DNA from: a virus | Length of the DNA: 21,185 nucleotides | Direction: 5' to 3' (one strand) | IMG/VR virus record: IMGVR_UViG_3300024255_000195 | Location: 1-21,185 of that record | Part shown: in pieces, positions 3,538 through 19,805 of the stretch | How positions within the stretch are numbered: the stretch's first letter is position 1 | Layout: every line of letters begins with the position of its first letter | Position numbers and translations under genes: made by a program | The notes under the pieces: model-generated | The model's database searches: none | What the model saw: only the letters and a program-made list of their open reading frames with translations | Told to the model about the DNA's origin: nothing

Positions 3538-3562
3538 TTACATCTTTTTGCTCATTTTGTGC

Positions 3563-3591
3563 TTGACAAAGCTATAGGAATGTGTTAATAT
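3563..3591 (+). promoter_or_regulatory. Sigma70-like promoter upstream of the HAD nucleotidase
   Basis: A perfect -35 TTGACA lies at 3563-3568 and a -10 TAATAT at 3586-3591, separated by 17 bases. TG at 3583-3584 gives an extended -10 (TGT before TAATAT). The -35 is embedded in TGCTTGACA, shared with three other intergenic sites in this window. It lies in an 85-base gene-free stretch and starts transcription toward the gene at 3623. Confidence 0.8.
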
Positions 3592-3599
3592 AAAGCATA

Positions 3600-3626
3600 A
3601 TGAAAAAAGGATATAAAACACTATGA
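3600..3626 (+). other. Possible 8-codon leader ORF (MKKGYKTL)
   Basis: An ATG at 3600 is 8-9 bases after the -10 box, near the expected transcription start. It opens an 8-codon frame whose TGA overlaps the ATG of the nucleotidase gene (ATGA at 3623-3626). It could be a leaderless coupling peptide or simply part of the 5' leader, since the AAGGA at 3607-3611 serves the main gene. Confidence 0.25.
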
Positions 3627-4219
3627 AATTCAAAGAACTCCGAAGTGATGTTGTACATCAAGTCAAAAAACTATCATTAAAAAACGAAGCATTTAGACAA
3701 GACAATAAGAAGTTGCCTCGTATCTATTGTGATATGGACGGAGTCCTATGTAATTTTGAACAGGCTGCACAAAAGGCAGTTAAAATGCCTCTATCACAAT
3801 GGGCATTAGAACCTAGAAAGAAATTTAAAACAATAAGAGATAAGTGGCAACCAATAATGCAGACTAAAAATTTCTGGTCTACATTACCTTGGAATCCAGG
3901 TGGTCAAAGACTTTGGTCTTTCATATCAAAGTATGACCCACATATCTTATCTGCTTATGTAGAACAGACTTCGGATCCTAGTTGTATTCCTGGCAAATCA
4001 AAATGGGCTAGAACAAAATTAGGTATGTCCGGTAGTAAAGTGAATTTAGTAAAACGAAGAGAAAAACAGAATTTTGCTAAAGTTGGTGGTATGCCAACAA
4101 TTCTAATTGACGACTATATTAAAAACATCAATCAGTTTAGAGCAAGAGGTGGTATAGGTATTCATCATACTAGTACTGCTAAAACGATTTCTGAATTGAA
4201 GAAACTTGGTTTTAAATAG
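3623..4219 (+). CDS. HAD-superfamily 5'(3')-deoxyribonucleotidase-like phosphatase
   Basis: The 198-residue product carries the HAD motifs in order. The nucleophile motif is IYCDMDGVLCNFE, with D37 and D39 as catalytic aspartates. A motif II Ser lies near residue 110 (ILSAY), a Lys-containing GKSKW segment at 124-128, and the acidic metal site LIDDYIKNIN with D163/D164. This order and the short cap match the NT5C/mdN type of deoxynucleotide 5'-phosphatase found in many large phages, where it adjusts dNMP pools; exact substrate is unproved. About 30 residues precede the HAD core and are Lys-rich, of unknown role. Its own sigma70-like promoter separates it from the flanking late-type genes, so it may be expressed earlier than they are. 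Confidence 0.8.
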   Translation: MKFKELRSDVVHQVKKLSLKNEAFRQDNKKLPRIYCDMDGVLCNFEQAAQKAVKMPLSQWALEPRKKFKTIRDKWQPIMQTKNFWSTLPWNPGGQRLWSFISKYDPHILSAYVEQTSDPSCIPGKSKWARTKLGMSGSKVNLVKRREKQNFAKVGGMPTILIDDYIKNINQFRARGGIGIHHTSTAKTISELKKLGFK

Positions 4220-13677: not shown

Positions 13678-13681
13678 GTGC

Positions 13682-13710
13682 TTGACAAATAGCATAAGAT
13701 ATAGTATGAT
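13682..13710 (+). promoter_or_regulatory. Strong sigma70-like promoter for the replication and nucleotide module
   Basis: TTGACA at 13682-13687 and TATGAT at 13705-13710 are separated by 17 bases, and the -35 sits in TGCTTGACA. It is located between the envelope-protein block and the primase gene, with predicted RNA start near 13717. No second promoter is obvious before nrdA or nrdB, so these are probably one operon. Confidence 0.85.
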
Positions 13711-13738: not shown

Positions 13739-14749
13739 ATGTCAAGTTATACAGATTTAAAATTCATCAACGAAATCTCGGCCCGACTAGGTCATTTTAA
13801 GAAAAAAGGTGACTATCTATTTAACTTTAGATGTCCACATTGTGGTGATAGTCAAAAGTCCAAACTAAAGTCCAGAGGTTATTTCTACCGTAAGAAAAAC
13901 GATATGTTTTTCAAATGCCACAATTGTGGTATGGGTCAGAACCTCGCTAACTTTCTAAAACACATAGACCCAAAAGTCTATGAAAAATATCTATTAGAAA
14001 GATATAAGTCGGACGCACCAGCGACACCAAAACCAGAGTTTAAGTTTGATTTTAAACCGAAGTTGAAGATAGAGAATGACTATATATCTGAACTTACGGC
14101 AATATCAAATTTAGAAGACAAACATCCAGTACGAGAGTATGTGGAGAAGAGAATGATACCTGAAAAGTATTTTGACAAACTTTTCTTATGTCATAAGTTT
14201 TACGAGTGGGCACACAAAATCGCACCTCGTAAATACAACACTAGTAAGTATGACCATCCAAGACTAGTGATACCGTTCTATGATACAGACGGTAAAGTAT
14301 TCGCCTATCAAGGTCGTGCCTTTGGTAAAGAGACACCAAAGTATGTAACCATTAAGTTAGACGAAGACAAAGATAAGATATACGGATTAGAAAGAGTAAA
14401 CTTTGCACAACACATTTATGTTGTAGAAGGTCCTATTGATAGTTTGTTTATTGATAATAGTATTGCAGCCGGCGGCGCTGATTTGACGCTAGATAGTAAA
14501 TATAATCCTGAAAAGGTGACATATATATTTGATAACGAACCAAGAAACAAAGAAATAATTAAACGAATGGAAAAGATAATTGAATTAGGTTACAACATTT
14601 TTATTTGGCCAGAAGATATACAACTCAAAGATGTTAATGACTTAATTATGACAGGTGTATCTAAAGTACAACTACAAGAGATTATAAGTATCAACACATA
14701 TTCAAAATTATCAGCGAAACAAGTTTTAACAAATTATAGAAAAGCATAG
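13739..14749 (+). CDS. DNA primase, T4 gp61-like
   Basis: The 336-residue product has an N-terminal zinc-binding domain with C32-x2-C35 (RCPHCGDSQKSK) and C60-x2-C63 (FKCHNCGMG), then a linker, a helical segment (HPVREYVEKRMIPEKYFDK) and a TOPRIM-type catalytic region. In that region IYVVEGPIDSLF supplies E230, and YIFDNEP and DVND supply further acidic metal ligands. This order and size match T4-like primase, which acts with a gp41-type helicase to lay RNA primers for lagging-strand synthesis. No helicase is in this window. It leads the operon after a strong promoter and is followed after 12 bases by nrdA. Confidence 0.9.
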   Translation: MSSYTDLKFINEISARLGHFKKKGDYLFNFRCPHCGDSQKSKLKSRGYFYRKKNDMFFKCHNCGMGQNLANFLKHIDPKVYEKYLLERYKSDAPATPKPEFKFDFKPKLKIENDYISELTAISNLEDKHPVREYVEKRMIPEKYFDKLFLCHKFYEWAHKIAPRKYNTSKYDHPRLVIPFYDTDGKVFAYQGRAFGKETPKYVTIKLDEDKDKIYGLERVNFAQHIYVVEGPIDSLFIDNSIAAGGADLTLDSKYNPEKVTYIFDNEPRNKEIIKRMEKIIELGYNIFIWPEDIQLKDVNDLIMTGVSKVQLQEIISINTYSKLSAKQVLTNYRKA

Positions 14750-17146: not shown

Positions 17147-18250
17147 TTGAGCAATACGGTATTCAATAAAGGAAAATCAATAGACTACACTAAACAACCT
17201 ATGTTTTTTGGTGAGGAACTACAGGTTCAAAGATATGATAATATGAAGTATCCAATCTTTGATAAACTTACACAACAACAATTAGGTTTTTTCTGGAGAC
17301 CAGAAGAAGTATCTTTGCAGAAAGACAGGTCTGATTGGTCAGCATTAAGACCAGAACAGAAGTTTATCTTTACATCTAATCTAAAATATCAAACTATGTT
17401 AGATAGTGTACAAGGTAGAGGTCCGTGTCTTGCGTTTTTACCTTTTGTATCATTACCAGAACTAGAAGGCTGTATCGTAACCTGGGACTTTATGGAGACA
17501 ATACATAGTAGAAGTTATACATACATTATTAAGAATTTGTATTCAGACCCAGCAGAAATATTTGATACTATTATAACAGATGAAAAGATTGAACGAAGAA
17601 GTAAATCAGTAACCAATGCCTATGATGACTTTATCCATACAGGTATGAAACATCAATTAGGTAATAAAGTTGATGAGTACGATTTAAAAGAAAAACTATG
17701 GAGAACACTTGTAACCGTAAACATATTAGAAGGTTTAAGATTTTATGTTTCTTTTGCTTGTAGTTTTGCATTTGGTGAATTAAAACTTATGGAAGGTAGT
17801 GCAAAGATTATCTCTTTTATTGCTAGAGACGAATCACAACACCTTGCCGTATCACAAAGAATTATTAATAACTATCGTGGTCCTGAAAACGATAAGGTTA
17901 TGAATAAGGTTATAAAAAATAATGAAAAGTTTGTTGAACAAATGTACAAAGACGCAGTAGAAGAAGAGAAGCGTTGGGCAACATATCTATTCTCAAAAGG
18001 TTCTATGGTAGGACTTTCTGAAAAGTTATTACACAATTATGTAGAATGGACAGCAAACAAAAGAATGAAAGCAATTGGTATTAAACCAATCTATGAACAA
18101 GGTAATGCTAATCCTTTACCGTGGACTGAACATTGGTTTAACAGCAGAAGTTTACAAAACGCACCACAAGAGACAGAAATAGAAAGTTATGTTATCGGTG
18201 GTATCAAACAAGATGTTGAAAAAGACCAGTTTAAGAAATTTAAATTATAA
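17147..18250 (+). CDS. nrdB: Class Ia ribonucleotide reductase, small (beta) subunit
   Basis: The start is a TTG at 17147 with GAGGA at 17135-17139; the resulting N-terminus (SNTVFNKGKSIDYTKQPMFF) aligns with E. coli NrdB, and a later ATG would remove conserved sequence. The 367-residue product has the complete di-iron/tyrosyl set: D86, E117, H120, radical Y124 (ETIHSRSYT), E195 (LEGLRFYVSF), E229 and H232 (ARDESQH). The hydrophobic C-terminal tail (KKFKL) is the usual docking peptide for NrdA. It makes the tyrosyl radical used by NrdA. The stop overlaps the next ATG (TAATG). Confidence 0.97.
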   Translation: MSNTVFNKGKSIDYTKQPMFFGEELQVQRYDNMKYPIFDKLTQQQLGFFWRPEEVSLQKDRSDWSALRPEQKFIFTSNLKYQTMLDSVQGRGPCLAFLPFVSLPELEGCIVTWDFMETIHSRSYTYIIKNLYSDPAEIFDTIITDEKIERRSKSVTNAYDDFIHTGMKHQLGNKVDEYDLKEKLWRTLVTVNILEGLRFYVSFACSFAFGELKLMEGSAKIISFIARDESQHLAVSQRIINNYRGPENDKVMNKVIKNNEKFVEQMYKDAVEEEKRWATYLFSKGSMVGLSEKLLHNYVEWTANKRMKAIGIKPIYEQGNANPLPWTEHWFNSRSLQNAPQETEIESYVIGGIKQDVEKDQFKKFKL

Positions 18251-19190: not shown

Positions 19191-19238
19191 AAGTCAGTAA
19201 AATCAACAAAAAAACTTCAAAAATAACCAAAATAGTGC

Positions 19239-19267
19239 TTGACATACTGCTAAAAGTATGGTATTAT
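19239..19267 (+). promoter_or_regulatory. Sigma70-like promoter, start point coincides with an ATG
   Basis: TTGACA at 19239-19244 and TATTAT at 19262-19267 are separated by 17 bases, with the shared TGCTTGACA form of the -35. The seventh base after the -10 is 19274, the A of the ATG of the following gene, so the mRNA may be leaderless. The surrounding 83-base gap otherwise holds only an A-rich stretch. Confidence 0.85.
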
Positions 19268-19273
19268 GTATAT

Positions 19274-19516
19274 ATGATGAAAAAACACACTATACAAAAC
19301 ACACTTAAATGGTTAGGAACCTTCATTTTGATACTTGGAACAGGTATTAATTCACTTGGAATATACCCCTTAGGCCCTCTAGTAATGGTGCTAGGAGGGT
19401 TAATCTGGTGTATCGTAGGTATCTTATGGAAAGAACTATCCTTAATAATCACAAATTTGACACTTTCTATCGTTTCAATCGTTGGAATATGTTATAAATT
19501 AGGGTATTTATTTTAA
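19274..19516 (+). CDS. Small three-helix membrane protein, possibly from a leaderless mRNA
   Basis: The frame is open back to a TTG at 19235, but that lies in the promoter, so I start at the ATG at 19274 (a second ATG follows directly at 19277). There is no ribosome-binding site upstream. The 80-residue product has three hydrophobic helices (about 12-30, 34-52 and 55-76), with GTGINSLGIYPLGPLVMVLG between the first two and WKELSLIITNL before the last. Size and topology match the preceding gene product, so they may be diverged duplicates or two halves of one complex. Function unknown. Confidence 0.6.
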   Translation: MMKKHTIQNTLKWLGTFILILGTGINSLGIYPLGPLVMVLGGLIWCIVGILWKELSLIITNLTLSIVSIVGICYKLGYLF

Positions 19517-19535
19517 TAATATGCTCGTTTTTTGC

Positions 19536-19564
19536 TTGACAATGATTGCGAAATGATGTATTAT
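19536..19564 (+). promoter_or_regulatory. Sigma70-like promoter for the small-gene cluster
   Basis: TTGACA at 19536-19541 and TATTAT at 19559-19564 with a 17-base spacer; the -35 again lies in TGCTTGACA. The predicted start base, 19571, is the A of an ATG that opens a 17-codon frame. The downstream genes to at least 20085 are chained by TAATG overlaps. Confidence 0.85.
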
Positions 19565-19570
19565 ATGAGT

Positions 19571-19624
19571 ATGAATAAGACAAAAGAACAATTAAATAAC
19601 AAAGGAGACACACACTATGAGTAA
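19571..19624 (+). other. Possible 17-codon leader ORF at the transcript 5' end
   Basis: The frame MNKTKEQLNNKGDTHYE starts at the predicted transcription start and its TAA (19622-19624) overlaps the ATG at 19617 of the next gene by eight bases. It could be a leaderless leader peptide coupled to that gene, or untranslated leader carrying the AAAGGAG ribosome-binding site at 19601-19607. Confidence 0.3.
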
Positions 19625-19805
19625 AGTAATGAACTATTATTGGGACGAAGCTGAAAAAGCAGTTGATAAGATTATTGAGAAATTGAAAGATGGTCAGATT
19701 GACTATGATACTTGCAAGTCTGAAATCTTAAAGACAGACAATATTGACCTGTGTTCAATTGATGAATACAATGTTGATGAAGTAATAACTTCGGAGACTG
19801 CTTAA
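19617..19805 (+). CDS. Small acidic helical protein (62 aa)
   Basis: AAAGGAG at 19601-19607 is a strong ribosome-binding site for the ATG. The 62-residue acidic product is mainly helical (WDEAEKAVDKIIEKLKDGQI), with two Cys at 33 and 46. I recall short proteins of this type (a DAEEAVDxI-like helix) in cyanophages, of unknown function. The TAA overlaps the next ATG. Confidence 0.6.
   Translation: MSKVMNYYWDEAEKAVDKIIEKLKDGQIDYDTCKSEILKTDNIDLCSIDEYNVDEVITSETA

Follow-up and report, generated by a model that had tools for sequence, protein, structure and literature searches.

The window, i.e., the whole stretch of 21,185 bases of a virus record that was analysed, carries four promoters of one class together with the genes and small reading frames behind them. 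In the following, offset denotes the number of bases between the -10 box and an ATG.

3561..3591, plus strand: promoter GCTTGACA-N17-TAATAT (TTGACA 3563-3568, 17 bases, TAATAT 3586-3591)
3600..3626, plus strand: non-conserved frame of eight codons, opened at offset 8 and closing with ATGA
3623..4219, plus strand: 5'-3' deoxyribonucleotidase-like gene (phrog_2643, E 1e-26; Pfam NT5C below its cut-off)
13680..13710, plus strand: promoter GCTTGACA-N17-TATGAT, followed by a leadered gene at 13739 and thus a counter-example
19237..19267, plus strand: promoter GCTTGACA-N17-TATTAT of the membrane gene (TTGACA 19239-19244, 17 bases, TATTAT 19262-19267)
19274..19516, plus strand: gene of a membrane protein (80 aa; PF20189, i.e., DUF6552 of Pfam), putatively leaderless; predicted +1 is the A of the ATG at 19274
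19534..19564, plus strand: promoter GCTTGACA-N17-TATTAT of the leader and the 62-aa gene (TTGACA 19536-19541, 17 bases, TATTAT 19559-19564)
19571..19624, plus strand: predicted 5'-terminal (leaderless) upstream ORF of 17 codons; predicted +1 is the A of the ATG at 19571, stop codon TAA 19622-19624
19601..19607, plus strand: Shine-Dalgarno-like AAAGGAG of the 62-aa gene, within the leader frame; SD-like in relatives too
19617..19805, plus strand: 62-aa gene, led by a Shine-Dalgarno (SD) site

The named phage nearest to the window at the DNA level is Pelagibacter phage Mosig EXVC030M, with 75.7% identity across 24% of its length, followed by phage HTVC008M. The host recorded for both phages is the SAR11 bacterium Candidatus Pelagibacter ubique HTCC1062. 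The window is a fragment of a T4-like phage, and since these nearest named phages infect SAR11, its host presumably belongs to this group, which ranks with the most numerous kinds of cell in the ocean. A gene for ribosomal protein S21 is annotated in Mosig (Mosig_00016, L004:9932-10141) and in HTVC008M (gp109, L366:41228-41431); a link of S21 to the choice of start sites would be speculation.

The form GCTTGACA-N17-TANNAT occurs at four sites in the window versus none in 100 shuffles. Generic promoter-like sites between positions 18000 and 21185 amount to 17, versus 16.1 in shuffles, and because the generic scan yields about as many sites as the shuffles, the information is carried by the GCTTGACA class and not by a generic match. 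Transcription canonically starts six bases after the -10 box, and from the position of the -10 boxes the starts are predicted at 19274 and 19571. The succession of TATTAT, six bases, and ATG, which the earlier note had described for these two promoters, is exact in both cases, with GTATAT intervening before 19274 and ATGAGT before 19571. Offset 6 is confined to these two among the four promoters of the window. The promoter at 3561 is followed by an ATG at offset 8, and no ATG is situated near the predicted start of the promoter at 13680, whose gene is primase-like and has a 'putative DNA primase' as its nearest annotated counterpart in Mosig.

The product of the gene at 19274 matches PF20189 over nearly the full length of the profile (residues 3-73 to positions 6-76 of 78). 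By protein search, 16 loci with the membrane gene were identified, of which 15 possess the promoter and the six-base spacing; the sixteenth, L021, is a weak match (39%) without promoter. Considering all fetched promoters of the class, offset 6 is kept before the membrane gene in 11 of 11 distinct variants, a set in which the promoter is present by construction and the offset is not. The distance from the -10 box to the ATG, whose comparison in relatives had been proposed as a check, is thus unchanged. These variants have diverged in the N-terminus, in the promoter spacer, and in the six bases that follow the -10 box, and two of them are one codon shorter near the N-terminus with the frame preserved. 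The 18 bases before 19274, gtatggtattatgtatat, are the promoter itself and contain no SD site; SD-like tetramers precede 71% of 35 ORFs of the window versus 3% in a control stretch. The earlier description of a membrane-protein gene which lacks a ribosome-binding site and carries its ATG at the predicted +1 therefore holds. By the test of length changes in frame among the 11 variants, together with the DUF6552 match, the 5' AUG at 19274 is a genuine start of a coding sequence. Due to the exact spacing in all variants, the in-frame changes of the N-terminus, the missing ribosome-binding site, and the family match, leaderless translation of the membrane gene is well supported at the sequence level.

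In case of the promoter at 19534, a 17-codon leader overlapping the next gene had been claimed and is indeed seen, since its stop lies beyond the gene start at 19617. The 62-aa product has no PHROG match, and Pfam returned only a sub-threshold match to WSN. An ATG at offset 6 was observed in 8 out of 8 variants of this promoter, i.e., in seven grouped variants and in the positional homologue L100, which occupies the corresponding position behind the membrane gene. Five variants (window, L012, L093, L094, and L096) retain the arrangement of a predicted 5'-terminal upstream AUG (5'-uAUG) ORF followed by an SD-led coding sequence; their leaders of 14-18 codons extend 1-13 nt beyond the first nucleotide of the following gene, and two different frames are used. 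In the other three, a long ORF of 114 (L089), 114 (L095), or 80 (L100) codons starts from the same ATG, and its stop overlaps the next gene as that of the window leader does. The L089 and L095 ORFs begin with MKTTKNT and thereby match the L094 leader, and their divergence (dN 0.078, dS 0.208) is consistent with coding. No leader frame is broken before the next gene in any variant of this promoter. The leader peptides are poorly conserved between variants, and that the five short frames remain open is not significant in comparison with shuffles (0.33-0.51 each, with a product of 0.012 over related, non-independent rows). In the wider family of the 62-aa gene, as judged by reading, an ATG at offset 6 is present in 17 of 49 loci and absent in 32; the 17 comprise 12 loci near the window as well as L047, L048, L050, L064, and L052, which have weaker -35 boxes. 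These 49 are taken from 52 loci, with L049, L066, and L069 left out due to a match off the start codon or a contig end.

For the promoter with TTGACA at 3563, the earlier note had described an ATG 8-9 bases downstream which opens an eight-codon frame ending in ATGA. The distance to the ATG at 3600 is eight bases, and the TGA of the frame lies within an ATGA shared with the gene at 3623. In the only other variant, L367:453, the offset is 8 as well, but one base fewer before the gene results in 10 codons instead of 8. Its sequence is identical in G007, G008, and G011, detected in a search of 40 records (29 with a match) in which a last base other than G was required. Such a change of the leader frame in relatives had been named beforehand as evidence against a conserved leader, and with offset 8 in both variants and frames of 8 versus 10 codons, a translationally coupled leader with conserved +1 ATG and frame was not found at 3600. 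A phrog_2643 deoxyribonucleotidase also occurs in another virus (L108:5904-6404), where it is of the leaderless type with offset 6, whereas in the window it is situated behind the eight-codon frame.

A 5'-terminal AUG at 19571 is likely from the comparison of the variants, and two explanations of the short ORF that it opens deserve consideration besides our own. The first, to which we assign slightly less than an even chance, regards the leader ORF as a functionless by-product, either a relict of a longer leaderless ORF or a consequence of the A-rich 5' region of an SD-led gene. The 114-codon ORF of L089 and L095 points in this direction, as it starts at the same ATG, shares its first residues with the L094 leader, and overlaps the next gene with its stop in the manner of the window leader; the position of the ATG at exactly offset 6 in all eight variants and in the five loci with weaker -35 boxes speaks against it. 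According to the second explanation, which we consider rather unlikely, a +1 AUG in front of an SD-led gene starts a leader peptide whose translation is coupled to that gene and regulates it; coupled leader peptides had been proposed in the earlier note. The constant +1 ATG and the overlap of all five short leaders with the next gene in two frames fit this proposal, and the same build was observed at the unrelated promoter L378:6494, with eight codons leading to ATGA. Furthermore, some Escherichia coli 5'-uAUG ORFs change downstream expression, but several have no effect on the next gene, according to PMC4965119. Poor conservation of the peptides, an openness that may be due to chance, the changed frame at 3600, and the 32 family loci lacking the ATG argue against coupling. 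Of the proposed coupled leader peptides, the conserved ATG and the unbroken frames at 19571 thus stand, but a long ORF takes the place of the leader in three of eight variants, the openness is unremarkable, and the ATG does not extend to most of the wider family. A regulatory peptide or a coupling to the gene at 19617 is therefore possible.

To place the two promoters in the context of the pelagiphage clade, sites of the exact form GCTTGACA-N17-TANNNT were collected from 125 fetched loci (1.46 Mb with overlaps), many of which are near-identical relatives and which include the genomes of both isolates. Identical 70-mers were merged, and only sites with 400 bases after the -10 box were used, so that sites at contig ends are missing. 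Grouping by likeness of the promoter DNA or by blastp of the first ORF reduced 87 distinct sites to 31 groups. Phage ORFs of at least 40 codons are our own calls from the 5'-most ATG and not annotations. The numbers of groups with an ATG in at least half of their members are 3, 0, 1, 0, 1, 0, 10, 2, 2, 1, 0, 3, 0, 2, and 0 for offsets 0 to 14, respectively. Given a background of 0.029 per group and offset, derived from offsets 15-99, approximately 0.9 groups are expected at offset 6, where 10 of 31 are found (P 1.1e-8); without the two promoters of the window and L100, 7 of 28 groups remain (P 1.3e-5). Drawing a random member per group yields 9 to 10 groups at offset 6, a range explained by the L052 group, of whose two members one has offset 6 and the other 9. 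As judged from the first member, 8 of the 10 offset-6 groups open ORFs of at least 46 codons and two open short leaders.

Even in the clade, an ATG at offset 6 or 7 is a minority feature (12 of 31 groups). In 14 of the 31 groups, the distance from the -10 box to the first ORF of 38 codons or more is at least 20 bases, and leadered genes are thus at least as common as leaderless ones. Base -1 is a pyrimidine in 25 groups and base +1 an A in 19, a bias which is expected if transcription begins there. Annotated genes start at these positions as well, namely Mosig_00022 and Mosig_00122 at offset 6 and HTVC008M gp113 at offset 7. A gene finder with a model for leaderless starts is among the references of the Mosig announcement, and the annotated starts may therefore not be independent of the signal. 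Family profiles likewise begin at offset-6 ATGs in case of a gp33-like late-transcription coactivator (PF16805, residue 1 to profile position 3) and of a pyrimidine-dimer glycosylase-like protein (Pyr_excise, PF03013, residue 1 to profile position 1). The offset test rests neither on poor profile matches nor on the 32 of 49 loci nor on annotations affected by the gene finder. Leaderless starts as a recurrent design in the related phages are supported by these comparisons.

Some individual loci deviate from or add to this picture. The class promoters at L369:9218, L374:9297, and L378:10622 (minus strand) are followed by an ATG at offset 2 (in one case also at 11), not 6; this ATG shares its frame with another one at offset 38 which has an SD-like site, giving two possible starts of one protein. 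An unannotated ORF of 52 codons between annotated genes (L003:8219-8377, minus strand; Mosig 108219-108377) lies behind a GCTTGACA promoter with ATG at offset 8, and similar N-termini occur behind offset-7 promoters in L183 and L184. Both the gp33-like gene of a related phage (L368:12422-12628) and a gp55-like gene of another virus (L107:2564-3109) are late-transcription genes and seemingly leaderless.

A preference of the RNA polymerase instead of the ribosome might also place an ATG at the start, if T(-1)A(+1)T(+2)G(+3) were a favoured transcription initiator. The prevailing -1 pyrimidine and +1 A, together with the two ATG groups that lead only short frames by their first member, are compatible with this explanation. 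It is nevertheless very improbable, considering the ORFs of at least 46 codons in 8 of 10 groups, the in-frame length changes of the membrane gene, and the three family profiles (gp33-like, Pyr_excise, and gp55-like) that begin at such ATGs. Moreover, the 16 groups with ATN at offset 6 comprise 10 ATG, 4 ATA, 1 ATT, and 1 ATC, in DNA rich in A+T. Chance in A+T-rich DNA, which might be suspected from the generic sites that barely exceed shuffles and from only 5 of 83 ATGs at offset 6 in the general virus sample (see below), is rejected as scarcely credible, since the class is absent from shuffles, the offset-6 peak is significant with and without the window promoters, and the spacing before the membrane gene is invariant.

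In our reading, which we hold with good confidence, a subset of strong sigma-70-type promoters starts its RNA on the A of an AUG, giving a leaderless message at 19274 and a 5'-terminal upstream ORF at 19571. The phage would possess a set of promoters GCTTGACA-N17-TANNNT, and at the subset in question the first transcribed base would be the A of the AUG. At 19274 this AUG would be the start codon of the small DUF6552 protein, with ribosomes binding the 5'-terminal AUG without an SD site. At 19571 it would begin a short upstream ORF which runs into the SD-led gene, and since it does so, one RNA would be readable in both the leaderless and the SD-led manner. The short ORF may represent a stripped-down form of, or a landing place for, the longer leaderless ORF of relatives. 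Spacing, recurrence beyond chance, ORFs, conservation in frame, and absence of SD sites are established by sequence comparison; initiation by 70S ribosomes, the exact transcription start, and the SAR11 host are inferred, as is whatever influence the leader may exert on the 19617 gene.

For other viruses, IMG/VR sites were picked for an ATG 2-14 bases after the -10 box and stem from 80 of at least 120 loci, and a further set likewise covers 80 of at least 120 stretches; sites with up to 15 differences were merged. Among the picked sites listed, offsets 6 and 7 account for 22 and 15 sites, respectively (22 and 18 with a less strict merge), compared to at most 8 at any other offset. Thus 37 of the 93 ATGs at offsets 0-14 in these listed sites fall at 6-7, and ORFs of at least 40 codons follow 25 of these 37 versus 19 of the 56 elsewhere (six of the 19 at offset 5; P 0.003 among the sites listed). 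Ten ORFs with offset 6 or 7 were compared to PHROGs. Six match near the beginning of a family or with room for the N-terminus, namely L107 (gp55-like late sigma factor, offset 6, residue 4 to profile position 3), L108 (deoxyribonucleotidase), L141, L150, L152, and L168 (for one of three families). For L106, L115, L124, and L159 the match begins only well inside the profile, and their true starts may therefore lie elsewhere. In an all-virus sample unselected for ATG, which required 160 bases downstream and was merged by the same limit of 15 differences, ATA (10 of 83) is more frequent at offset 6 than ATC (6) and ATG (5). The excess of ATG at offsets 6-7 is modest (12 versus 4, P 9e-4), and the first ATG of a long ORF lies at offsets 5-7 in 11 of 83 cases, with 3.5 expected (P 0.001). 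Because of this proportion and of the surplus of ATA over ATG, leaderless starts seem to be a minority in other viruses and commoner in the pelagiphage clade.

The presumed hosts were represented by three SAR11 genomes (stretches L345-L364, L387-L405, and L479-L498; 1.18 Mb) with 1086 ORFs of at least 80 codons, again own calls from the 5'-most ATG and not annotations. A first test with a fixed spacing of 17 bases gave a vague bump at offsets 5-9, and none for TATAAT alone; rescoring of the predicted ORFs with spacings of 16-18 bases revealed a sharp peak at 6. The motif TTG-N19..21-TANNNT is found at offset 6 in 7, 5, and 8 cases per genome, i.e., 20 of 1086 versus 3.3 per offset (P 4e-10). 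Since the scoring method was switched after the first test, the third genome, which was fetched after the pattern had emerged, is of importance; on its own it yields P 1e-5. The 20 cases are not all independent, as three orthologues, one MnmG-like, one PheS-like, and one resembling a membrane protein, each contribute in two genomes. By their N-termini, we take offset-6 ORFs to encode MnmG, PyrG, Lon-like, FtsH, PheS, and Fur-like proteins. The Fur-like ORF has offset 5 in one genome and 6 in another. The signal before such housekeeping ORFs appears to be a sign of leaderless starts. SD-like tetramers precede 15-16% of SAR11 ORFs (control stretch 8-10%), compared to 52-71% of the ORFs of Mosig, HTVC008M, a 120-kb relative, and the window (control 3-13%). 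The phage-type form TTGACA-N17-TATNAT gave 26 hits in 23 of 26 SAR11 genomes, 21 of them, by eye, inside one coding family (labelled NPPY methyltransferase-like), and is uninformative for the host offset; hosts rarely use this form, which their phages use. An E. coli K-12 control of 50 kb with 45 ORFs was too small to be informative.

We tentatively suggest, at clearly less than even probability, that leaderless initiation is a permanent mode common to SAR11 and their T4-like phages, in which the phages place chosen genes, perhaps as a separately controlled class of translation. The hosts would make little use of SD sites and keep leaderless housekeeping genes, in contrast to SD-rich phages, and the chosen phage genes would be those of small membrane proteins, of gp33 in relatives, and of gp55 in another virus.

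Leaderless initiation and 5'-uAUG ORFs are known kinds. Leaderless genes have been the subject of a survey (Zheng et al. 2011, PMC3160421). In these genes a TANNNT signal precedes the start codon by about 10-12 bp, and here such a signal is found at this distance more often than by chance (10 of 31 groups). Both there and here, the -10 distance puts +1 on the start codon without an SD site. That survey concerns cellular genomes, with leaderless genes in 2 of 117 alphaproteobacterial genomes, whereas the present case concerns a phage clade with near-consensus -35 boxes and three SAR11 genomes. In E. coli, mRNAs that carry a uAUG at their 5' terminus (Beck et al. 2016, PMC4965119) resemble the 19571 arrangement in that a short ORF at the 5' end precedes an SD-led gene and stops near or inside it (rhaB with 8 aa and an ATGA overlap; overlaps in pcnB, ptrB, and xap). 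These 5'-uAUGs can bind 70S ribosomes, and their removal may raise, lower, or leave unchanged the expression of the next gene. The E. coli ORFs were shown by reporters and toeprints, the phage case by comparison only, and unlike in E. coli, the same AUG opens a long ORF in relatives of the phage. The cI mRNA of lambda (PMC4965119 and PMC9031893) likewise stems from a phage gene translated from a 5'-terminal AUG, but this is the single repressor gene of a temperate phage, whereas here several independent genes of T4-like phages are concerned. Sinorhizobium meliloti, an Alphaproteobacterium too, has 171 leaderless mRNAs, all with AUG (PMC3616915); these starts were mapped experimentally, in a soil symbiont and not in SAR11.

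In the portions of the literature searched, no report of leaderless initiation or 5'-uAUG ORFs for SAR11 or its phages was found. In PMC9004378, PMC2704228, PMC7892664, and PMC9516812 the word 'leaderless' occurs only in reference lists, and searches for cyanophage leaderless transcripts, phage Cappable-seq, phage early promoters, and pelagiphage promoters yielded, as far as these sources were accessible, nothing on this clade. Within this scope, the repeated occurrence of both elements in T4-like phages of SAR11, and the indication of such starts in SAR11 itself, are new.

Pelagiphages are difficult to manipulate genetically. A rule consisting of a near-consensus promoter, six bases, and an ATG and thus locating start codons that lack a ribosome-binding site, would allow gene starts in such phages to be corrected and overlooked small genes to be recognised, and would give a testable class of differently translated genes. 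Leaderless initiation in Alphaproteobacteria is suggested to extend to SAR11.
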